Virus record (IMG/VR): IMGVR_UViG_3300008110_000159
Span: 1-37,817 of that record
DNA from: a virus
Length of the DNA stretch: 37,817 nucleotides
Strand: one strand, 5' to 3'
The notes under the pieces were generated by a model. That model saw only the letters and a program-made list of their open reading frames with translations. It did no database searches and was not told the DNA's origin. This document shows, piece by piece, positions 3,001-32,305 of this stretch. The position numbers were made by a program, and so were the translations under genes. How positions within the stretch are numbered: the stretch's first letter is position 1; each line of letters opens with the position of its first letter.

Positions 3001-5887
3001 CTTAGAAGATAAATTAGTCTCTGCTGATACTAAGGCTAAGAAGACTGATTTTACTGAATCATTTAAAACTATCTTGGACATTGCTTCTGGTTACAGAGAC
3101 AGTGATGGACAACCTATTGGTTCAGATATGCTTGATGAACGTAAGGCTGTTATCAAAGAAGCTCAAGAGGAGATGGAGAATGCACGTAATGAATGGGCTG
3201 GCTACTCAGGATTAACTCGTGACGAGATGGAGCTTTTAATTGATTTGTCTAAAAAGAAAAAAGAGAATGGTGAATTAGAACCAAATGAGTTTGAGAAGTT
3301 TAAAGAATTACTAAACAGGCAAGATTCACTAGGACTTACTAAGAATGAACGTGCTGAGATTACAGGCTTGTTTGGAGATCTTAGAGAGCTACAAACTAAA
3401 GACCCGACTACTTATTATGTTGATGCTATTAATCACTGGATGGATATAATAGACTCACAAGAAGTGTATGATGAATTAAACTTCAATGAGTTTAATGCAA
3501 GCAACATGGATAAGCTTTATAATCCGAGTGTATTAAGCAAGATGTTTGCTAAGAGTCCTGAGTTTGAAAAATGGTTTAAAGCAAATCACCTTGAGAAAAA
3601 TTATAGAGACAAAGATGCAAAGTCTGTAACAAGCTATGAAAGATTATATGTATGGAACATTATTAAACCTAATGACCCAAACATGTATGAGACAAAGCCG
3701 TCTCTTAAATACTTTACAAGAGTTGTAAAAAAAGAGTACAAGAATGGTTATGATAAAAACACAGGTGAAGTCAAATTAATAATAGGTGTACATAAAGATA
3801 ACAGAGGAGAGTGGTTACCTAAGCAAGATGTTAATTCACCTTATTACAACCAAGCTTACTTTGACTTACAAAAAAATGATCCTAAATTATTTAAACTTCT
3901 TGAGTTTCTTAAAGAAGAACATTTAAAATCACAGGACGGTCTTTCAAAACGTGGTAAGTTGTATTATGATTTCCCCCGCTACGGAATGAGTGGTTTAGAA
4001 GCTGCCCAAGCAAAAGGTATAAAAGGAACAGCTGCAGAAAAGCTTAGTCCTATTTCAGCTATGCTCACAAAGATTAAGCAATTTTTTACGGGAGCAATGG
4101 ATGAGCAGGGTAGTATTTATAACGCGGATATGGCTAACGAGTTGGTTAGAGCTGATGGTTTTAATGACCAGATAGAGAACATACCAATGCAAGGCTTATT
4201 TAATCTAGAACTTAAAGATACTTCAACAGATGTTATAAGTGGTATACTACGTTATATCTATAACGCTGAACACCACAAACAGTTGGTTAAAATGAATCCT
4301 ATTGCTCAAGGTTTAAAGAACTTGCTTGAAGATCCTAATAATAAACTTAAGGAACTAGATAAAATTAACCGTTCAAACTTTATAAACTTTGGTGCTACAA
4401 CTTACGCTAACAAGAAAGGTAAGTATATCCGTAAGGATGCAATTGCCCAGTATTATGAACGTGACTTTCAGGGCCAGTCTATAACAGGATTTGGTAAAGA
4501 TATACCATGGATACAGAATGTACAGAGACACTTGTTTGGTAAAGCAGCGTTTTCCTTCTTTGCCTTTAACATACCATCTGCTTTGAAGAACATGTTTACT
4601 AAAAAGTTTCAGAGTTTAATACTTGCTTCAGCAGGTAATGATCTTACAGTAAGTACCTTGTTTAAGGGAGAATCTTGGTCAATGAAATACATGATGAAGC
4701 TTAGTGGTTCTGATATCTATGCTAAGGGGCCTAAGTCACTGGAGCATCAGATAGGTGAGATATTTGATCCAAGCCCTAATAGATTTCAAGAAAAGTTTCA
4801 TGAGTCAATCACAAGAACATTTGCAAAAGATGTAGTGAGTACGGGTTGGTTTTATAACTTCCGTAAATGGACTGAGGTACAAGCAACCATGCAAACATTT
4901 GCTGGCATGATGTTCAAGAAGAAAATACCTATGGGTAATCAGATGATTGATTATATGGATGCATGGGAACTTAATGCTCAGGGTAAGATACAACTTAAAG
5001 CGGGTATTGATCCTACGTGGGGTATTACGTATGATGAAGAAGGTAACATGAGTGTAGGTGCTGAATTTAAAGCATTTAAAAATAAAGTTGGTGCTGTTAA
5101 TACAAAACTGGATGGAGCTTTTGCTAAGCTTGATCAGCCTTTGATGCAACGTCTTATAGCATTTAGATTTGTGCAGTTCCTTAAAAAGCATATGATCACA
5201 ATGAGTATTAACAGGTTTGGAAGAAACCGTATGGCTCCAGGATATGGTCAGGAAGATGAAGGTTACTATGTGCAAGCTGTTAAGTCTTTACTTGGGGCTA
5301 TTAAGAATAGAAACATAAATGATATGACTAGAGAAGATAGAGCAGCTTGGATGAGAATTATTACTGAAGTTGGTGTGCTTTATTTAATGGGTCTATTAAT
5401 GGGACCTTTATTTGGATGGGATGAAGACGATGAAGATAGATACAAGAAGCTACGTGAAAAGAGTGGTAAAATGACAATACCTTTCTTAGCTGATGAAGAG
5501 CCTGGACAAGAATTTAACTTAGCAGGTTTCATGGAACTGCATGCTATGAATCAAATGCTTCAGATCCGTTCAGAGAATGAGCAGTTTATTCCATGGCCAG
5601 GTATGGGTCTTGATAACTTATCAACTGTTGTGGATCTTAAGTCATTAGCCTTTGGACCAACAACAGATACATGGCAACGTATAGGAACTGACCTGGTTAA
5701 TATATGGGAAGGTAATGAACGTCAGTTTTATAAACGCCGTAGTGGTCCATTCAACTGGTCACAACAAGGCGGTCGTCAGATATGGGCCCATATAGGTAAG
5801 ATGTTTGGTGTAACAGGTTCTAACATCTCACCAGGTGATATGATTACAAACTGGGATAAGGCACAAAACATGTCTGCCAAGAGATAA
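71..5887 (+). CDS. Giant multidomain virion-type protein with zincin (HExxH) motif, 1938 aa
   Basis: This very long ORF starts at the first ATG after the upstream stop and ends at TAA. Near the N-terminus, residues 179-183 read HEFAH, an HExxH zinc-protease signature. About 65 residues later an AEEVIVKAL segment (around 247-255) could supply the third glutamate ligand, as in zincins of polyvalent phage proteins. A basic amphipathic helix follows (about 276-293). The middle 1000 residues are highly charged, helical and probably coiled coil. Near residues 1762-1780 is one hydrophobic membrane-like segment (GVLYLMGLLMGPLFG) followed by an acidic patch. Size, layout and position at the end of the + strand block resemble the giant capsid-cargo or ejected proteins of crAss-like phages and podophages. 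No RNA polymerase catalytic motif (DxDxD type) was seen, so it is probably not the catalytic polymerase subunit. A virion role is inference; the metal-binding motif is seen directly. Confidence 0.85.
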   Translation: MITCPNLSNPTVKAQWDAIANNPALGNREAMREFMEAEMNNRPIGTPEQVMAKLEAREVVNPIASHDKFVADMKNIIAAKSNDPVLTDPDTLYGFASVVQPINTKSLSVTDNSNGRAMEVLNKLSEATGINYSFITPEEAVIITANSKNPYTIGRAPAFFHGGTVYFINGMVNTELAFHEFAHPIVRTIQQDNPVLFEKLYMDAIRADQTLLDEAIAEYQDLQKALDNAVEDEEKDAIRLKLQKAVAEEVIVKALTRGAMLKEAGIKPSTGLAKALNNILAAIKKMLRSVFGNKVNVAKLDETTSLDKLAEMLHAGGNFVINTETVSQADVVAYNQDFQNYVNDLKQATEGDKGQAVMAMARRIYEGATDQIEMIMKNKNYQEMINLFADQYNRGDLQEMRANVSRYARELETKAESMIEDIQKTQSQVQSVVGAMLRLKVMMTKMEEHLNELRKDATNRDNVHRAYYYARVLEYWQKYISEAQDMMIKAGAKSDSPMNQLLGSIETSMKTSAKHINQMNNEGISDILWEQWESMSNRAEELFKDKIKRLEDRNASQAAINKEYVKFYGMNKADYERYKMLQAKQESGQDLTYEESKDLEIGKKASFDGIVMSREKVARAIRGEGADARYIESYFEGYLYSSDPVIGGFALYFKNNMTEMEARVQSRVSGMSGALKELIDDAGINFLKPGELGKKIGFVDKFGYIDKNGTFQQKEVWAMLNPYKDYRYDVDRFNNELKGLRDRYNRDRSKENQEAFAAKLAEKNAHMRKWMQQEYVDEYYEKDDLLGKDASDTVGQRAKFLRDEIFNRMEIINLAANRDDQLVDNTKEMDDLWKEYNQLYSSYYLNGQKKTGVDLEVAQRLQQHRDLTRKFHEYKPRTGVYENELAKKEQQIRDNLISLQYEEGTEEFDDQFEAYRDMWIKANTVTKIKPEFYEIRSKLIENLKEILGRPAARLRQQLKDLEAKGIKTAADRALKKDLEDKLVSADTKAKKTDFTESFKTILDIASGYRDSDGQPIGSDMLDERKAVIKEAQEEMENARNEWAGYSGLTRDEMELLIDLSKKKKENGELEPNEFEKFKELLNRQDSLGLTKNERAEITGLFGDLRELQTKDPTTYYVDAINHWMDIIDSQEVYDELNFNEFNASNMDKLYNPSVLSKMFAKSPEFEKWFKANHLEKNYRDKDAKSVTSYERLYVWNIIKPNDPNMYETKPSLKYFTRVVKKEYKNGYDKNTGEVKLIIGVHKDNRGEWLPKQDVNSPYYNQAYFDLQKNDPKLFKLLEFLKEEHLKSQDGLSKRGKLYYDFPRYGMSGLEAAQAKGIKGTAAEKLSPISAMLTKIKQFFTGAMDEQGSIYNADMANELVRADGFNDQIENIPMQGLFNLELKDTSTDVISGILRYIYNAEHHKQLVKMNPIAQGLKNLLEDPNNKLKELDKINRSNFINFGATTYANKKGKYIRKDAIAQYYERDFQGQSITGFGKDIPWIQNVQRHLFGKAAFSFFAFNIPSALKNMFTKKFQSLILASAGNDLTVSTLFKGESWSMKYMMKLSGSDIYAKGPKSLEHQIGEIFDPSPNRFQEKFHESITRTFAKDVVSTGWFYNFRKWTEVQATMQTFAGMMFKKKIPMGNQMIDYMDAWELNAQGKIQLKAGIDPTWGITYDEEGNMSVGAEFKAFKNKVGAVNTKLDGAFAKLDQPLMQRLIAFRFVQFLKKHMITMSINRFGRNRMAPGYGQEDEGYYVQAVKSLLGAIKNRNINDMTREDRAAWMRIITEVGVLYLMGLLMGPLFGWDEDDEDRYKKLREKSGKMTIPFLADEEPGQEFNLAGFMELHAMNQMLQIRSENEQFIPWPGMGLDNLSTVVDLKSLAFGPTTDTWQRIGTDLVNIWEGNERQFYKRRSGPFNWSQQGGRQIWAHIGKMFGVTGSNISPGDMITNWDKAQNMSAKR

Positions 5888-6595: not shown

Positions 6596-6988
6596 TTAAC
6601 TTTTATTAGTAGAGAGTATTTTATTAATATCAGGCTGGGAGTATCCCGGGCCCTTTTGGATCTTGCCATCTTCTCTAAAGATAGGCTTACCGTCTGATCC
6701 TAACTTGCTCATGTTGCTACGTTGAATCTCACTAAAGACTTCTTCAATCTTGTGTTGAAGACCGTGCTTTAATATAGTTCCACATAGAATGTATAACTGA
6801 TCACCTAGTGCATCAGCTATCTCAACTAAGTCTCCGTTCCAACAAGCTTCCTTGTATTCATCATTTTCTTCAGCCATTAAATTATACCGGAGCAAAAATT
6901 CATTCTCAGGTAATAATCTTGGCTCTGTTCCATTCTCTTGTAAGAATACTTTGTGAAATTCTTCCACGGCTTTTAATTGTTCTTGCAT
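6596..6988 (-). CDS. MazG-like nucleoside triphosphate pyrophosphohydrolase
   Basis: The 130-aa helical protein contains AEENDEYKEA (around 36-45) and EIADALGDQLYILCGTILKHG (in two parts around 56-76), the EExxE and ExxD metal-binding helices of all-alpha NTP pyrophosphohydrolases. The following IEEVFSEIQRSNMSKL is typical of phage members, which end with a SNMSKL segment. The reaction is NTP or dNTP to NMP plus PPi. Its start overlaps the stop of the kinase gene upstream (TAATG), so the two are probably co-translated. Together they would adjust nucleotide pools. MazG-like phage proteins have also been linked to lowering host alarmone levels, but nothing here distinguishes these roles. Confidence 0.82.
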   Translation of the reverse strand: MQEQLKAVEEFHKVFLQENGTEPRLLPENEFLLRYNLMAEENDEYKEACWNGDLVEIADALGDQLYILCGTILKHGLQHKIEEVFSEIQRSNMSKLGSDGKPIFREDGKIQKGPGYSQPDINKILSTNKS

Positions 6989-14629: not shown

Positions 14630-15116
14630 AAATTACTGGTTTTAGTTTGTCTTCTGGATTAAGGTGTTTGAATTCAGGCTTCAGCTCCATTGTAAAGTTA
14701 TAGAACTTGGAACAGGTTATACCGTTTAATCTAAACACAATATCTGAATTCAATTTAGTCATCAGTTTTTGGAAAATCTCTGGGGTTAGCCAACCTTTTT
14801 TATTAATATGTTCTATAAAGCTAGACTCTCCCATAGTTGATAAACTAAATAAAGATGTATCATCTCTGAATTGTCTACTTGCCTTTGTTCTAAGATTAAC
14901 CATTCTTTGTGTAATCCACCAACCTTTTCTAGCCAATTGCCATAACCAGTAAATTGAAAGTTGTATGTTTACTTGGTTTAAGATAAGCTGTGCCATCTTG
15001 TGATCACCTTCATCGGTGCTTGCTAACATTTGAGAAATTCTCTCATATGTCTGTTCATTAAGAACAGTAGTGCCGGCTATTACCGGCACTGTCTGTGTTC
15101 CTACTAATTCATCCAT
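14616..15116 (-). CDS. Hypothetical protein, 166 aa, following the MoxR ATPase
   Basis: No family was recognised. The sequence is helical, with aromatic clusters (IYWLWQLARKGWW at about 54-66) and a charged C-terminal part (FKHLNPEDKLKPVIYDND). Its start overlaps the ATPase stop (TAATG), so translation is probably coupled and the two products may be made in similar amounts. A perfect 8-bp inverted repeat lies within its first 16 codons. Position between the ATPase and the 392-aa gene suggests a component of the same module. Confidence 0.7.
   Translation of the reverse strand: MDELVGTQTVPVIAGTTVLNEQTYERISQMLASTDEGDHKMAQLILNQVNIQLSIYWLWQLARKGWWITQRMVNLRTKASRQFRDDTSLFSLSTMGESSFIEHINKKGWLTPEIFQKLMTKLNSDIVFRLNGITCSKFYNFTMELKPEFKHLNPEDKLKPVIYDND
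15069..15090. repeat. Perfect GC-rich inverted repeat in the start of the 166-aa gene
   Basis: AGTGCCGG and CCGGCACT form a perfect 8-bp inverted repeat around the six-base loop CTATTA, inside codons 9-16 of the gene starting at 15116. It is strikingly GC-rich for this AT-rich genome. In mRNA it would form a stable hairpin just downstream of the start codon and could damp translation or act as a protein-binding site. There is no T tract, so it is not a terminator. Confidence 0.55.
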
Positions 15117-15836
15117 TATTTCATTGTCATTTTCATTACAGACTCATTCATCAAAAGCTTTTGAAACTTCTGCTTGTTACCGTTAAGTATCTTCTTAATA
15201 ACTATATACTTCAAGTCATCAGTAAATGCTTCTTCAGTACCCAATTTGATTAATCTGTCAATGTGCTTTTGTGTAATTGAGTTCTTCTCAGAGTAATTAA
15301 TTGTAAAGTTAATTAACCTTGTTGCTAATACACTTGCAATATCAGCACGGTAGTTATGGTCTTTACCAATACATCCGCGTAACTCACCCATGATATAATC
15401 TCCATTGTCATGGCATAAAATATCTTGAGGTCTAACTAACTTATCCAACTTGTTGTTGATAAACGTAGTGAATATAGTAGTGAACTCAGGCCCCACTGAA
15501 CCTTCACCAATCATTTGGATTAAAGGTAACTCAGCAGAGAAATCTTCAATAGAACTAATACAGTTAAAGAAGGTAGTGATACTTCTAGCATTCACACGAG
15601 TACTTACTAGTTCCTCATGCATCAACAAGAAGTTAATACAACGACCATCAATACCTTGAGTCTCTGCCCAACGTGCCCATACATCTTTGTCAAACTTTAA
15701 ATTCACACTTACAAAACGAGTACGTTGTGCTGAGTCAATTGATTGTACTAAATATTCTCCATTGTCTGGATTAGCTGTCAATAAAATATGCCAGTCCTTT
15801 GGTAACTTCCATGAGATATACTCTTGTCTATCCACA
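15116..15836 (-). CDS. MoxR-like AAA+ ATPase, exon 2 (sensor 1 to C-terminus)
   Basis: This is the 3' exon of the ATPase whose first exon is 16944-17659. It encodes DRQEYISWKLPKDWHILLT, then ANPDNGEYLVQSID and SAQRTRFVSV. These are the sensor 1 strand (LLTANP) and arginine-finger region of MoxR-like AAA+ proteins, followed by the helical lid. Without splicing it has no normal start; the first in-frame codon is a GTG at 15835. Joining 716 nt of exon 1 to these 721 nt gives 1437 nt, a continuous 478-aa frame with MEL-VDRQEY at the junction. The exact splice base is inferred from frame, an exon T and an intron-final G. Confidence 0.88.
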
Positions 15837-16110
15837 CATTATTGTTATCGCTAAGTTTTTTATCTTAGCTTCTGTATATCTCTATACAGGTCAGCATATA
15901 TCTTCATACATTAGTATGCCGGGCACTCTTGGGTATATTATATTCTACAATGTAGTTTCAATACCTATGCGTTGAACCTTCCCAAATCTTTTAGATTTAA
16001 GCTTGGCTGCTGATTGTCTTATAATACTAAACTTTTCAAGCATTCACACTCACCGTTTCCAGTCATGTTGTAGCATTAGTATTTTCAAGATATCCCAGCA
16101 ATTCACCCGG

Positions 16111-16899
16111 TTAGGAGCCCGTGAATAGACTCAAGTTATGAGTATCAGCTTTAACATAAGATGCTAAATACTTTCCTCTCACTTTTCTTGTTTGTGGTTT
16201 TTGTAAAACATAAGCAAGATTACTTCTTATTATTTTCCAGTCACCTTGGTAATTAATATCTGCTGCAATGTATCTTGCACAATCAGATAAAGAGTTAAAA
16301 GACATATAGAACTCTCCTCTCAAGTTATATAAATATACAGTTCTAGTTTCTAAATTAGAACCTGTATTACACATATATTTTCCAGGAGATATTTTTTCAT
16401 AAGACCATTGAAATCCATGAGCTGATTTAGAAGCTTCTACAGAAGGATTAGCACAAGCATGTATTGCATTGTAAGAAACATTAAGTATTCTTGCAGCAAC
16501 CATAGCTGATTTCCATTCTTTAATAAAAACACCTTCAAGATCAAACTGATATACAGTTTTTTCATGAAAACCTCCTATACCTTGTATAGGATCATCTAAA
16601 TTTAACTCAGCATTAAGTTTTTCAACCCACTGCTTTTCTTTATTTCTAAGTTCTAAAAACTTTATAAGAAAATCACATTCTTCAAGTATTCTATATTCAC
16701 AGTTTTTGTATTTGTTATACAGGTTCTGTAGATACTTGTTATCATGCTTGTTGTTCCTTAAAAGAGTTCTGTGTCTTCTTAGTCTTTTCTTTATGTTGAC
16801 ACTACTGCCTACATATTGTTTACCATTAATTTTCAAGAGATAAACACCACATGGATTTTTACCTCTTAATTCATCAAGCTGTTTAAATAAATCTTTCAT
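16111..16899 (-). CDS. Intron-encoded GIY-YIG homing endonuclease with NUMOD1 repeats
   Basis: The 262-aa protein has CGVYLLKINGKQYVGSS (residues 17-33), a GIY-YIG nuclease signature with the variants GVY and YVG, followed by IKKRLRRHRTLL with the conserved arginine. Two DNA-recognition repeats of the NUMOD1 type follow: TVYQFDLEGVFIKEWKSAMV with AARILNVSYNAIHAC, and VYLYNLRGEFYMSFNSLSDC with ARYIA. This matches I-TevI/I-BmoI-like enzymes, which cut intronless alleles and spread the intron. It lies wholly inside the intron, before the ribozyme core. A host-type promoter ends four bases before its ATG. Confidence 0.92.
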   Translation of the reverse strand: MKDLFKQLDELRGKNPCGVYLLKINGKQYVGSSVNIKKRLRRHRTLLRNNKHDNKYLQNLYNKYKNCEYRILEECDFLIKFLELRNKEKQWVEKLNAELNLDDPIQGIGGFHEKTVYQFDLEGVFIKEWKSAMVAARILNVSYNAIHACANPSVEASKSAHGFQWSYEKISPGKYMCNTGSNLETRTVYLYNLRGEFYMSFNSLSDCARYIAADINYQGDWKIIRSNLAYVLQKPQTRKVRGKYLASYVKADTHNLSLFTGS

Positions 16900-16903
16900 A
16901 CTA

Positions 16904-16935
16904 CAAACATATGTAATATAAATAAGTTATCCAAA
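16904..16935 (-). promoter_or_regulatory. Bacteroidota-type promoter for the intron endonuclease
   Basis: On the minus strand TTTG (16935-16932), a 20-base spacer and TATGTTTG (16911-16904) match the Bacteroidota primary sigma promoter consensus TTTG-N19-21-TAnnTTTG exactly. The last G is four bases before the endonuclease ATG at 16899. Transcription would therefore start at or next to the start codon, giving an almost leaderless mRNA. This would let the endonuclease be expressed independently of the spliced host-gene transcript. Confidence 0.7.
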
Positions 16936-16943
16936 ATTATTTG

Positions 16944-17659
16944 AGCTCCATTACAGCTTGTATGAATCTTGTATCGGACCTGTTCCAGTCATCTAAGATT
17001 AAGAAACCACCGCCTTGCTTGTCAGCAATCCACTCAGGAGGACAATAAGACATACGCTTGTTTCCCGTAAAGTCATATCCACGCTTTACATATTCATTCA
17101 CGGCATTCTCATCCACCCAGATGCACTCACCTTCAGAATAAGATAATACAACTTCAGAAGATACAGGTACAATTTCTTCCTCTGTAACTTGTTTCTCAAC
17201 AGGAACTTCTACTTCCTTCTCAACTTTAACAGCTACTGTTACATCACGAAGAACAAGCTTGCCATCTGGACCCATTACTTGTTTCTTAACTGTTTTGTTT
17301 TCTGTTACAGTTTGCATTTGCTTTTCCATAACAGTAATTGTTTTAGTTACAAAACGCTTTTCTGTAGTTGGAATACCAGGTAAAGGTTTACCATCTTTGC
17401 ATAACTGGAACTGTCTGATTGGAAAACCAACCAAGTCACCCAACTCTTCTATCTGAGCTAAGTTTAACTTCACTACATTCATCCCAGTCTCGTTGGCTAA
17501 CTGTAATACAGAACTTGTCTTACCAATACCTGATTCACCAACAATCTCCACAGCTACTGGTGGCTTACCGCCTGACTGTAAGAAGCGATTGTTATTCATG
17601 ATGTGAGTTAAGAATCCTTTTACCTCATCAATATTTAAGTTTACTTGTGCGTTGCTCAT
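16944..17659 (-). CDS. MoxR-like AAA+ ATPase, exon 1 (P-loop and Walker B)
   Basis: Exon 1 encodes 238 full codons plus two bases. It shows Walker A GESGIGKTS (residues 41-49) and Walker B FLILDDWNR (219-227), ending in RFIQAVMEL, the helix before the next conserved strand. Between them, residues about 100-170 are an unusual Val/Glu/Lys-rich insert (KVEKEVEVPVEKQVTEEE) not typical of MoxR. Unspliced, the frame runs only one codon past the junction before TAA. MoxR-like ATPases work with VWA-domain partners to remodel or insert cofactors into protein complexes. The VWA/zincin gene lies immediately upstream with nine intervening bases, supporting a functional pair. Confidence 0.9.
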
Positions 17660-24968: not shown

Positions 24969-25771
24969 CTGTACCACATTTGTCTCATGTTTCCATGAGG
25001 ATCGGACTATATCATCACTTATTTTTATTATAAGTGGAGGATGCTATGGGCTCACCGTAGTGTCCCTAGTCTCTGAACCTGCTTGAGTCTTCCCTCAAGA
25101 TCGGCTGCTGATTGGCTTATCTTCACAGACTTAGCTTTCCAGCAATTCTTCCTCTTTATTCAGGACCCGTTTAAGATTATTAATAAGTAATTCTAGCTCT
25201 TCTAAAGTAAGATTGTTTTTAGCACAATTTGCTTTATGAGATATAACTTGTACATTACCTTTAATATACCCTTTTTCACAAATAATTCGGTCTATAGTAG
25301 GACTATTTGGTCCTACTTTATCTTTTGTTACATGAAGAGGTATATTTAATAAAGGGCACATTTTAGGTACAATTACATCATCATATGTAATATTAAAATC
25401 CAAGTTTGCTTTTTTAGCTCTACGGCGAGCATGAATTAACATAACTTTTCTAGGATCTTTTTTATGTTGTTTTCTTCTAGCTTCAGGACTACAGTATTCA
25501 GCTGTATTCACTGTAGCAAGAGAACATTTTTTACAGTCACTTCTGTAGTAAAGAGTTGGAACTTTTTTACCTGAATCTTTTGTTGTAGGACTAGGCATTC
25601 TTACTCTTGAACTAAATAGTGATATATCTAACCAACATTTACATTTTTTACATAATCTGGTGTTATTATCAGAGTTGTAATTTTTTAAAGGAGCTATTCT
25701 TTCATGTACCATATACGATGTATTTATTGTCTAAGGTACTACTTATTTATTAATAATCCAAATACTTGTTA
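24969..25771 (-). ncRNA. Group I self-splicing intron in the uracil-DNA glycosylase gene
   Basis: Canonical core elements occur in order on the minus strand: P AATTGCTGGAAAGC (25134-25147), Q AATCAGCAGCCGA (25101-25113), R GGTTCAGAGACTAGG (25065-25079) and S GATGATATAGTCC (25004-25016). R GACTA pairs with S TAGTC (P7). A P9 hairpin CTCATG-GAAA-CATGAG sits at 24984-24999. The exon 1 end is GGTCAGGAT, the intron begins TAACAAG and ends GTACAG, and exon 2 starts CCGTAC. This rebuilds GQD-PYP in frame with the required exon T and intron G. Length is about 803 bases including an HNH ORF whose stop lies inside element P. Confidence 0.95.
25131..25712 (-). CDS. Intron-encoded HNH homing endonuclease
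   Basis: The 193-aa protein has an N-terminal zinc site (CKKCKCW at about 21-27, DCKKCS at about 58-63). After a basic linker (EARRKQHKKDPRKVMLIHAR) comes an HNH-type core: CPLLNIPL, SPTIDRIICEKGYIKGNVQV and ISHKANCAKNNLT. The DRI...GY..GN...S..AN..K pattern is characteristic of phage HNH homing enzymes. It is entirely within the UDG intron, and its last codons EELLES plus TAA overlap the ribozyme P element, so coding and RNA structure are selected together. It presumably cuts intronless UDG genes. Confidence 0.9.
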   Translation of the reverse strand: MVHERIAPLKNYNSDNNTRLCKKCKCWLDISLFSSRVRMPSPTTKDSGKKVPTLYYRSDCKKCSLATVNTAEYCSPEARRKQHKKDPRKVMLIHARRRAKKANLDFNITYDDVIVPKMCPLLNIPLHVTKDKVGPNSPTIDRIICEKGYIKGNVQVISHKANCAKNNLTLEELELLINNLKRVLNKEEELLES

Positions 25772-26913: not shown

Positions 26914-27192
26914 TTATTCTATTTTTGCGGTTAAATTATTTTCACACAGCGCCTCCTTGATGGGCTTGAGTGTTTTCATATCTCCTTCTTTTACGGAGCA
27001 CTTACCATTGTTGTGTATAATCAGAGCACATTGTTCAGCTTGAGACGGTTGATGACTGCAGTATTTTGTAAAGCAGTATATAACATGTTCAAACGTGTTG
27101 TGATCATCATTGTATACAACAATGCTTTTTGATTTTGCTACTTGTTCTTCAACAAGCACGTCTTCTTCATCTATAAACGGATCAAATGTCAT
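26914..27192 (-). CDS. clpS: ClpS-like adaptor of the ClpAP protease
   Basis: The 92-aa protein contains SIVVYNDDHNTFEHVIYCF, the VxxxNDdxNtfehVi signature of ClpS, then QAEQCALIIHNNGKCSVKEG (A..~a...H..G...v..G) and a TLKPIKEAL helix. The conserved H of the IHNNGK segment and the N-D-D residues that bind the N-terminal amino acid are present. ClpS delivers N-end-rule substrates to ClpAP and blocks other substrates. Bacteroidota hosts have ClpS, so the gene was probably acquired from a host. In a phage it could redirect host proteolysis. Confidence 0.88.
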   Translation of the reverse strand: MTFDPFIDEEDVLVEEQVAKSKSIVVYNDDHNTFEHVIYCFTKYCSHQPSQAEQCALIIHNNGKCSVKEGDMKTLKPIKEALCENNLTAKIE

Positions 27193-30413: not shown

Positions 30414-30851
30414 TTAGTTGTTAATTGTTTTTTGACAAATTAATAATGATTTTATGTGCAGGTCAAGTACAAAGTCATAGTTGTCTTTACGGTATCCACC
30501 AAATAAACAAAGTACTACAGGAACACGTTTGCATAGTTTAACTGATACATCATTAATCCAATTAGAAAATATCTCAGCTGCTTTAAGCCAGTTTTCTGTA
30601 CTAAGCTGTCCTCCTAGATCATCTTCATCATGGCTATCAGCGCCGTGACAAAACACTACGTAATGTACTTTGTTACTTAGAATCATCTCCTCTACGTGTT
30701 TTAACTTTTCTTTAAAGTCTTCAAGGTATGAGTTATTACGACCTTGAGGGTTTATGTTACACCCTTTTGGTATAGCTTTCAGAAGAGTTGGATTAAAGAT
30801 ATAAGCATCTTCTATACTGTTACCGTAATGACCATCAAGATCTAGATAAGA
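30414..30851 (-). pseudogene. HDAC-like gene, C-terminal half after an in-frame TGA
   Basis: The frame of the N-terminal half continues past TGA (30854-30852) without shift: SYLDLDGHYGNSIEDAY, HYVVFCHGADSHDEDDLGG and VVLCLFGGYRKDNY. These are the DxDxH..GN zinc motif, the D..D motif and the terminal GGY motif of the class I/II histone-deacetylase and acetoin-utilisation family. Every catalytic element missing from the first half is found here. No good start exists before them; the first in-frame ATG (30686) is after the zinc motif. A full product of 298 aa requires decoding, readthrough or absence of the stop. Confidence 0.8.
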
Positions 30852-31310
30852 TCAAGATAAACCAAACTCATCATAAATTTTTATAGCTGATATGACTTGA
30901 CCTGAAAATGTACAGAATCCTGAGCCACTATCAGGATGTGCATGATGCATACCAGATACGGGAGCAAAGCACAGTTGATCTGGATTTTGTATAGCATGTC
31001 TTTTTGCTGCTAGCAGTGACCCTGTTGTGTAATGTAAACTGTTTACTAATTCTTTGCTCCAGGGTAAAGCATTGCTTGAATAATTACCCGTCATATTAAA
31101 TACATTATTCACGTATTCTTTAGTATGAGCTATATAAAAATCAGTTTTCTTGATTGGTTGGAAGTAGTCAATTATATCAAAGTGACTTCTAAGTCCTGTG
31201 TTTTCTATTTTCTCCATCAAAAGCTTTGGCTTAAGAGGACTTTTAGAAAAGGACGCACTCATCTTAGTACACACTTGTTTGGGCGTGTAAAATGTTTTTA
31301 TTTTTTCCAT
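30852..31310 (-). CDS. Histone-deacetylase-like hydrolase, N-terminal half ending at TGA
   Basis: The 152-aa product includes IIDYFQPIKKTDFYIAHTKE YV, then FAPVSGMHHAHPDSGSGFCT with the tandem-histidine motif, and FSGQVISAIKIYDEFGLS. These match the first half of HDAC-family amidohydrolases (PxGHHA...GFC.FN). It breaks off just before the DxDxH zinc motif at a TGA. Alone it lacks the metal site and is probably inactive. The family removes acetyl or acyl groups from lysines, polyamines or other amines. Replacing the TGA by one residue aligns perfectly, as does deleting six bases around it. Confidence 0.82.
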   Translation of the reverse strand: MEKIKTFYTPKQVCTKMSASFSKSPLKPKLLMEKIENTGLRSHFDIIDYFQPIKKTDFYIAHTKEYVNNVFNMTGNYSSNALPWSKELVNSLHYTTGSLLAAKRHAIQNPDQLCFAPVSGMHHAHPDSGSGFCTFSGQVISAIKIYDEFGLS

Positions 31311-31318
31311 ATTGTTTA

Positions 31319-31573
31319 TTAGTCTTGCATGTCGCCAACAGTTAAGTCAGTGTCATCAATGTTGTCCATAAGTTCATTCTCTTCTCCAAGAGCTTTTGTT
31401 GTTGACAATAAATGTCTTGTTGTATTCATCATTAACATGAATTCAAAAGTGGGATCACCATTTGCATTAGTAGCACCTATTTTTTCATCAATAAGCATGG
31501 CCTCTATAGACTTAATCTTTTTTAAAAAACTAAATCTTAACTCTTTAGCTGTGTAATTTTCTTCTTCTTTCAT
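31319..31573 (-). CDS. Hypothetical helical protein, 84 aa
   Basis: An acidic, helical protein (KELRFSFLKKIKSIEAMLID; EFMLMMNTTRHLLSTTKALG) ending in an Asp-rich tail (DNIDDTDLTVGDMQD). No family was recognised. It overlaps the preceding gene by ATGA and lies nine bases before the HDAC-like gene, so both may be co-expressed. Confidence 0.65.
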   Translation of the reverse strand: MKEEENYTAKELRFSFLKKIKSIEAMLIDEKIGATNANGDPTFEFMLMMNTTRHLLSTTKALGEENELMDNIDDTDLTVGDMQD

Positions 31574-31791
31574 GGTTGTTGTTTTATACCAAACTCAATA
31601 CCAGCTTGAGAGTTATAGATAAATCTGTCCATAGCTCCTGCAGATAATTGAGGATTGATCTCTGTTAATAATGATTGAAATTCTTGATGAGGAATTATTA
31701 CTAGTAATCTCATGTTACTAGGTATCTCACCCATATTATGAGCAATGTGAAACCCAAAGGCTTCAATGTCATGTCTTGTTTTTATTTCCAT
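31570..31791 (-). CDS. Hypothetical protein, 73 aa
   Basis: The product (MEIKTRHDIEAFGFHIAHNM, then LLVIIPHQEFQSLLTEI) looks like a small alpha/beta protein. No family was recognised. It starts 18 bases after an intrinsic terminator, so it needs readthrough or an undetected promoter. Confidence 0.65.
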   Translation of the reverse strand: MEIKTRHDIEAFGFHIAHNMGEIPSNMRLLVIIPHQEFQSLLTEINPQLSAGAMDRFIYNSQAGIEFGIKQQP

Positions 31792-31809
31792 ATGTGCGAT
31801 GATTAAAAA

Positions 31810-31827
31810 AGCCGGTCTTTCCCGGCT
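31810..31827 (-). terminator. Intrinsic terminator at the 3' end of the structured region
   Basis: A GC-rich 6-bp stem (AGCCGG/CCGGCT) with loop TCTTTC is followed on the minus strand by T6. It would end transcripts coming from the right, including a possible noncoding RNA from 32008 to 31828. Confidence 0.75.
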
Positions 31828-32008
31828 GTCAGTCTTTGATAACCATGATGCCTATGAATTTAAGCTACCAGCATTTTCTATATATGTCACTGTTAAATTG
31901 AAACCTTGTTAGGTTTAGTTGGGTACAGCTCTAACACATACGATGGATATCCATCTATTAACTCTCACACTCCGACAAGAGTGTGCGCAAATTGGGTAGA
32001 CCCCAACT
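31828..32008 (-). ncRNA. Candidate structured noncoding RNA, class unknown
   Basis: This interval has no ORF longer than about 20 codons and contains clustered inverted repeats: TTGGG/CCCAA (31992-31996, 32002-32006), a 7-bp CACACTC/GAGTGTG with 6-base loop (31966-31985), the palindrome GATGGATATCCATC (31942-31955) and AAACCT/AGGTTT with a 4-base loop (31901-31916). GTTGGG at 31919-31924 can also pair with CCCAAC at 32002-32007, which excludes the first hairpin, so two folds compete. An intrinsic terminator follows. No tRNA, hammerhead or known riboswitch core was recognised. It may be an sRNA or a regulatory leader. Confidence 0.5.
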
Positions 32009-32305
32009 TTAATTAACTTCTGCGTTTTCTTCTATGCTTTCTTCTAATATACGGTCAAGTACATTCTCAGCCCATTGGGCTCCGGGAGATCCTAGTAATG
32101 CAAATCTACTTGCGTCAAAATACTGGTAAGGAAAGCAATCATCAATATTAACCTCAGCTAATTTGAATCCAAGCTTTCCTCCTTGTATCATTAACTTTGT
32201 AACATGCGTTACCGTATAGACTTCACTTTCTTTAATCCATTTACTTGATGGTATTCCATCAGGTCTTGCCTTATCATTGATACAAATCACCTTGAACTTG
32301 ATCAT
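32009..32305 (-). CDS. Conserved-type hypothetical phage protein, 98 aa
   Basis: The sequence FKVICINDKARPDGIPSSKW, then EVYTVTHVTKLMIQGGKLGF and DCFPYQYFDASRFALL, follows a pattern common in small Bacteroidota phage proteins (ICI...RP..IP..KW...G..YTV...GL.L.E). No function is known. It overlaps the preceding gene by 32 bases and is followed by the structured noncoding region. Confidence 0.68.
   Translation of the reverse strand: MIKFKVICINDKARPDGIPSSKWIKESEVYTVTHVTKLMIQGGKLGFKLAEVNIDDCFPYQYFDASRFALLGSPGAQWAENVLDRILEESIEENAEVN

Follow-up and report, generated by a model that had tools for sequence, protein, structure and literature searches.

A window of 37,817 nucleotides (positions 1 to 37,817 of the IMG/VR virus record IMGVR_UViG_3300008110_000159), which is part of a tailed-phage genome, appears to encode a real noncoding RNA of about 205 nt, conserved and folded, running on the minus strand from 32009 to 31804 and ending in an intrinsic terminator. 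We consider it rather probable that this is a standalone structured phage RNA with a pseudoknotted core, acting in trans, with tRNAs or translation as its most likely point of action. Its structure and covariation, its strand, its membership of a family and the linkage of the family's 3' hairpin to tRNA genes were established by comparing related sequences. This conserved pseudoknotted RNA is present in many environmental phages, is absent from Rfam and has been missed by current annotation.

The RNA occupies a gap of about 215 bases flanked by two minus-strand genes (31570-31791 and 32009-32305). As the original prediction had stated, no plausible ORF lies in this gap among packed genes, and the stems that it claimed do exist there. 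The minus strand of the gap folds with an energy of -64.8 kcal/mol (z = -4.0, none of 200 shuffles being as good), compared with -48.3 (z = -1.76, 10 of 200 shuffles as good) for the plus strand. The intrinsic terminator also predicted is clearly present, namely, the hairpin AGCCGGGAAAGACCGGCT followed by TTTTT, but on the minus strand, where the genes on either side and the stronger of the two folds also lie; since these three features agree, the RNA is assigned to that strand. This terminator sits 13 nt ahead of the start of the 73-aa ORF at 31570-31791, and three terminator-like sites were detected compared with 0.3 expected. No promoter of the Bacteroidota type was seen in a search by eye, and a sigma-70 scan stayed at chance level. 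A 74-kb viral contig (L014/L001) is 99.99% identical to the window across the 13.9 kb compared. The features of the RNA are collected in Table 1.

Table 1. Elements of the noncoding RNA, in coordinates of the window.
Feature	Position	Strand	Remarks
Whole noncoding RNA	31804..32009	-	5' end near 32009 inferred; 3' end = T-run near 31805
Helix A1, 5' strand, AGUUGGG	32002..32008	-	Invariant in three close relatives; covaries in L096, L097 and L148
Helix A1, 3' strand, CCCAACU	31917..31923	-	Within helix PX, hence a probable pseudoknot
Pseudoknot helix alpha, 5' strand, CUACC	31995..31999	-	Partner is 31865-31869
Helix alpha, 3' strand, GGUAG	31865..31869	-	In the loop of stem zeta
Hairpin P2, CACACUCU-UGUC-GGAGUGUG	31966..31985	-	UGUC-cap enrichment and covariation
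GAUGGAUAUCCAUC, conserved GG-n-UAUCC element, possibly hairpin P3	31942..31955	-	Sequence conserved
Helix PX, 5' strand, GUAUGUG	31935..31941	-	Compensatory changes in L003, L002 and L096
Helix PX, 3' strand, CAUAUAU	31880..31886	-	Pairs with 31935..31941
Hairpin P4, AAACCU-AACA-AGGUUU	31901..31916	-	Alignment with close relatives
Stem zeta, 5' strand, AUGC	31871..31874	-	Partner is GCAU at 31848-31851
Stem zeta, 3' strand, GCAU	31848..31851	-	Swapped-partner test
Invariant linker AUGGnUAUCAAAGACUGACA	31827..31846	-	Contains the search-pattern part AUCAAAGACUG
3' hairpin AGCCGG-GAAAGA-CCGGCU	31810..31827	-	With the T-run (to 31805), the intrinsic terminator in the window virus

With regard to known RNAs, Rfam 15 gave a single match on the window, a group I intron elsewhere, and none in the gap at or above the gathering threshold. 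The gap alone, searched up to an E-value of 10, returned chance matches only, with no riboswitch and no ribozyme among them; the relative L125, searched up to an E-value of 5, gave no match, 15 further loci gave tRNAs only, and permissive thresholds yielded nothing credible. ARAGORN finds no tRNA in the gap, in agreement with the original prediction that the RNA is not a tRNA, and neither ARAGORN nor Rfam reports a tRNA or tmRNA there. The proposal of an unexplained structured noncoding RNA is borne out by covariation across many phages. A group I intron remnant, an RNase P-like RNA, tmRNA, a hammerhead, a CsrA site and a tracrRNA-like RNA were also considered and rejected, as the order of the conserved elements does not fit them (by inspection, with Rfam as the test).

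Through the flanking gene, the same arrangement was recognised in two close relatives, L003/L013 and L002/L012, which are 84% and 82.5% identical to the window over the gap. Identity at four-fold degenerate sites nearby is similar (84% and 77%), so that identity by itself proves nothing, and the two relatives taken alone fold weakly better than their shuffles (z of -1.1 and -1.4), so that the case rests on comparison and not on energy. Inside the gap, the close relatives show single-base differences in length, which is consistent with noncoding sequence. The consensus fold of the three sequences already predicts helix PX and its inner helix, and PX shows paired changes, the window pair being replaced by GUAUAUA/UAUAUAU in L002. 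Hairpin P4 is replaced in the relatives by a different hairpin of the same shape, (A)GUCA-GCGA-UGAC(U), in an alignment judged by eye with a gap shifted by hand, the 83% of paired positions being counted on the MAFFT alignment. In the structure combining PX and A1, 95.5% of cells are paired, whereas shuffles reach 91.9% and slid controls 48.6% at most; because the 3' strand of A1 lies inside PX, the two helices would form a pseudoknot and not alternatives. In L004, a noncoding-looking stretch (3300-3530) with a 9-bp closing stem follows the homologous upstream gene; this gap gives no family match, and its folding energy is no better than that of shuffles.

A covariance model built from the three close sequences was searched against 1.36 Mb of sequence from 88 sources, namely, the window together with related phage loci, and matched L039, at the same place as L096, and L018/L019, at the same place as L097, with 38 bits and an E-value of about 5e-8. 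These loci retain PX, and A1 through the compensating changes CUGGG/CCCAG and CCGGG/CCCGG; outside the model, they have in common a 3' part, UUAAAUUCAU...AUGGnUAUCAAAGACUG, followed by a hairpin with a GAAAGA loop. Scanning viral contigs with two parts of this 3' motif yielded L099 first and then 78 contigs, about half of them genuine and the remainder coding or chance; these scans added about 35 further viral contigs. By our count, the RNA is carried by about 43 viral contigs; in addition, one genome of the Flavobacteriaceae belongs to the family. L015 and nine genome-contig pattern matches were rejected as coding sequence or chance, and matches of Gordonia phages to the hairpin are coding and probably due to chance.

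A second covariance model, R2, covers the 3' part only and does not include P2. Among 397 Flavobacteriaceae genomes, it found two matches. One of them, L196, has the whole architecture, with P2 (UUAGU-UGUC-GCUAA), alpha (GGUCAAGG/CCUUGACC), zeta (AGCUC/GAGCU) and a terminator, by which the family can be assigned to (pro)phages of Flavobacteriaceae. The other match, L197, scores 31.5 bits and is without the GGAAAGAC hairpin. R2 also gave one strong match apiece in the larger contigs checked, of 74, 120 and 102 kb. A search of 395 Bacteroidota genomes, a set with no positive control, found none. Compared by blastn with named phages, the gap and two relatives returned only the 3' hairpin, or nothing. 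The match of mEp390 to the 3' module has an E-value of 4e-5; full membership is not claimed for relatives in phages of Proteobacteria, since only this module is supported in them. No description of this RNA was found in the open-access literature: structured phage RNAs near tRNAs are of a known kind, and this family appears undescribed.

Members share a common layout, consisting of P2, a 5' strand that forms a pseudoknot with the loop of a 3' stem, the linker AUCAAAGACUG, which does not vary, and a 3' hairpin whose loop is GAAAGA; a T-run is missing in most of them. In the window RNA, all the elements that define the family were found, i.e., the UGUC-capped P2, the alpha/zeta pseudoknot, the AUCAAAGACUGAC linker and the GAAAGA-loop 3' hairpin. 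The invariance of GAAAGA and AUCAAAGACUG is due in part to their use as search terms, the AUGG and GAC that flank the latter in the linker being outside the pattern. UGUC was in neither search pattern, and 20 of 24 members have, at the expected place, a hairpin with this cap and a stem of 4 bp or more; among stretches drawn at random from the same loci, 0.86% do. The P2 cap is usually UGUC, with AGUC or GGUC in a few members, and after the hairpin comes a G-rich element, GAAGG or GAGG, often with UAUCC; the P3 hairpin form of GAUGGAUAUCCAUC is broken in some members.

The P2 stem covaries at all eight pairs (0.915 compared with 0.262, reached by none of 500 shuffles), in rows that were chosen to contain the hairpin, so that the comparison with random stretches is the cleaner control. 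Covariation was also found in the stem of the 3' hairpin (0.622 compared with 0.183; none of 500 shuffles). With regard to the pseudoknot, alpha duplexes average -17.8 kcal/mol with their own partners and -14.5 kcal/mol with swapped ones (none of 5000 permutations), and the swapped-partner test of zeta gave 0 out of 10000; no arms were picked by eye in these swap tests, whereas the alpha and zeta arms were so picked for the pair count, in which all 126 chosen pairs of alpha are standard in 19 members. For the window group, the energy-based test of alpha is weak, and the evidence lies in base-by-base covariation. Helix A1 changes from GUUGGG/CCCAAC in the window to CUGGG/CCCAG in L096, CCGGG/CCCGG in L097 and CCAGG/CCUGG in L148; a swap test on its duplex energies did not discriminate own from swapped partners. 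A1 is best taken as a conserved long-range helix, compatible with the others and likely forming a second pseudoknot. Furthermore, the UGUC loop is complementary to the linker CUGACAG, and the two may touch each other.

In 24 of 41 cases, a tRNA gene on the same strand is found no more than 400 nt from the 3' hairpin; the cases include related contigs and are thus not all independent, and the figure for random positions is 3.9%. The tRNA concerned is usually Arg(UCU). The hairpin stands 3-6 nt ahead of tRNA genes in L028, L122, L139, L142 and L166, and tRNA-Arg(UCU) precedes it by about 150-190 nt in the marine group; the order of the two is not fixed. No tRNA lies near the RNA in the window virus, L097, L110, L154, L161 and L170. 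Since the window virus has none in the approximately 74 kb examined, nor the L097 virus in the parts scanned (most of its genome), the link is not universal. Genes downstream of the RNA differ among relatives (L097, L096 and others), and in L170 the RNA is found downstream of groEL, at the end of the operon, and is followed by a convergent gene; there is thus no shared regulated gene.

ROOL RNAs, of about 600 nt, are much larger than the window RNA, and we know of no function for either GOLLD or ROOL, both of which lie near tRNA genes. The proximity of the 3' hairpin to tRNAs recalls these two families, although GOLLD exceeds 800 nt, compared with about 205 nt here, and neither GOLLD nor ROOL was matched by Rfam in the loci scanned, ROOL being a distinct family. 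The resemblance to ROOL is that it, too, is a phage RNA located close to tRNA islands; it contains multiple pseudoknots, and no protein partner is known for it (PMC12286853).

We infer transcription, processing, action in trans and the target of the RNA as follows. Its transcription would probably be part of that of the packed minus-strand operon; the terminator of the RNA would define the 3' end, and processing or an unrecognised promoter the 5' end. A compact core, in which the long-range pseudoknot joins the 5' strand to the loop of zeta, the 3' stem, probably with A1 as a second such helix, may then present the constant elements, namely, the UGUC loop, GGnUAUCC, AUCAAAGACUGAC and the GAAAGA-loop hairpin. 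The RNA would act in trans, and tRNAs or translation during infection are its most likely field of action, a role also suspected for GOLLD and ROOL (PMC12286853). A free-standing trans-acting RNA is best supported by the absence of a shared regulated gene, the variable position, the own 3' terminator in the window group and the single detected copy per genome, and the target suggested by the tRNA linkage is tRNA or translation. Three cis-acting or processing explanations rank lower.

First, the RNA could be a processive antiterminator acting in cis, like HK022 put or EAR, the nascent RNA binding RNA polymerase so that later terminators of the operon are read through. It lies in a long same-strand operon, is folded, conserved and noncoding, and has a terminator immediately after it in the window group; in mEp390-type phages, the CI repressor has more distant relatives of this 3' module on its downstream side, and put is likewise a phage element of an early operon that works as RNA alone. 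However, put is an RNA of about 70 nt with two stem-loops, for which no pseudoknot is mentioned (PMC9378689), and the architecture of the window family differs from it. Moreover, a family member can sit at the end of an operon, the L170 copy being the last element and facing a convergent gene, and other copies lie between or beside tRNA genes; we regard antitermination as unlikely.

About equally improbable is a processing or leader element of tRNA transcripts, in which the RNA, above all its 3' hairpin, would direct the cutting of tRNA precursors or protect them, and would have survived without tRNAs in the window virus. The hairpins placed immediately ahead of tRNA genes and the upstream tRNA-Arg(UCU) of the marine group favour it, whereas the six loci with no nearby tRNA and the variable order relative to the tRNA do not, and a conserved pseudoknotted core would be needless in a spacer.

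The original prediction favoured riboswitch-like or sRNA-like behaviour, based on CCCAAC pairing either with TTGGG (31992-31996) or with GTTGGG. Both pairings can form, CCCAAC lying at 32002-32007 and GTTGGG at 31918-31923, the latter one base away from the position first given. In a riboswitch or attenuator of the 73-aa gene, such alternative folds would make or break the terminator, and the folded region followed by a terminator ahead of an ORF does resemble a transcription-attenuating riboswitch. The supposed mutual exclusivity was not confirmed, since the long-range pairing is kept, with both sides changing together in relatives, whereas conservation of the local hairpin ends with the three nearest viruses: in the two closest relatives it weakens to G-U pairs, and by inspection L097 and L096 do not have it. 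The family has no shared downstream gene, most of its members are without a T-run, and no Rfam riboswitch matches; the differing downstream genes and the copy between groEL and a convergent gene argue for action in trans and against a riboswitch, which we deem very unlikely. The sRNA-like part appears to be the better half of that guess. Finally, stems that arose by chance in a normal stretch between genes, next to a terminator, would suit the weak folds of the two closest relatives and an overall identity (84%) near that of four-fold sites, but are scarcely credible given the covariation and swap tests (P2, 3' hairpin, alpha and zeta) and the independent recovery of the UGUC hairpin; the original prediction had listed absent covariation in homologous regions among what would refute it, and the covariation observed speaks in favour of a structured RNA.

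Returning to the trans-acting RNA, its relatives now make its function testable. Its size, roughly a quarter of that of GOLLD, its clear invariant elements and the copy in a genome of the Flavobacteriaceae make probing, deletion and pull-down practical. Phages that are more distant (Vibrio phages, Pokken, mEp390 and DIBBI) carry the hairpin by itself, often near tRNAs. Tentatively, we can propose an unrecognised class of phage RNA, in which a 3' hairpin module, UGACAGC-nn-GGAAAGAC-nn-GC, common to phages of Bacteroidota and Proteobacteria (Vibrio, mEp390-type and Xanthomonas DIBBI) and repeatedly found beside tRNAs and tRNA-like elements without an anticodon arm, might constitute a common RNA-based device acting on tRNA or ribosome function; this wider reading is possible but doubtful.

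Several other observations were made in related phages. Directly after the GAAAGA hairpin, L063 (3066-3120) and L028 (12262-12340) carry tRNA-like elements with acceptor and T-arm sequences and apparently no anticodon arm. In L166, two CUGACA..GGAAAGAC hairpins flank a tRNA-Met gene (6659-6733, minus strand), possibly indicating a second copy of the RNA. In L180 and L190-L195 (mEp390 and prophages of Klebsiella, Salmonella and E. coli), a long unannotated hairpin-rich region is present downstream of the CI repressor; its 5' and 3' modules are mosaic, the 3' module resembling that of the window RNA. The gene directly upstream of the family member on the viral contig L170 (735-2315) is GroEL-like, a name given from its sequence, and L079 (2163-2299, plus strand) harbours a Hatchet ribozyme (81 bits).

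In the window itself, the group I intron (24983-25215, minus strand; 84.8 bits in Rfam) overlaps a possible HNH-type ORF and is accompanied by an ORF at 25131-25712; the ORF adjoining the intron is presumably a truncated uracil-DNA glycosylase-like gene. The stretch 24969-25771, which covers the intron region, is absent from the relative L012. A GIY-YIG/NUMOD1 homing-endonuclease ORF (16111-16899) lies in the minus-strand region 15836-16936, which has no Rfam intron match, and the ORFs on either side (15116-15835 and 16937-17659) look like halves of one ATPase gene. A histone-deacetylase-like gene (30414-31310, minus strand; Pfam Hist_deacetyl) is interrupted by a single in-frame stop; it is intact in L012 and L013 (about 295 residues) and has 299 residues in L018. 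The window also encodes a ClpS protease adaptor (26914-27192, minus strand; Pfam), and a ClpS-like ORF directly follows the helicase gene in L018.
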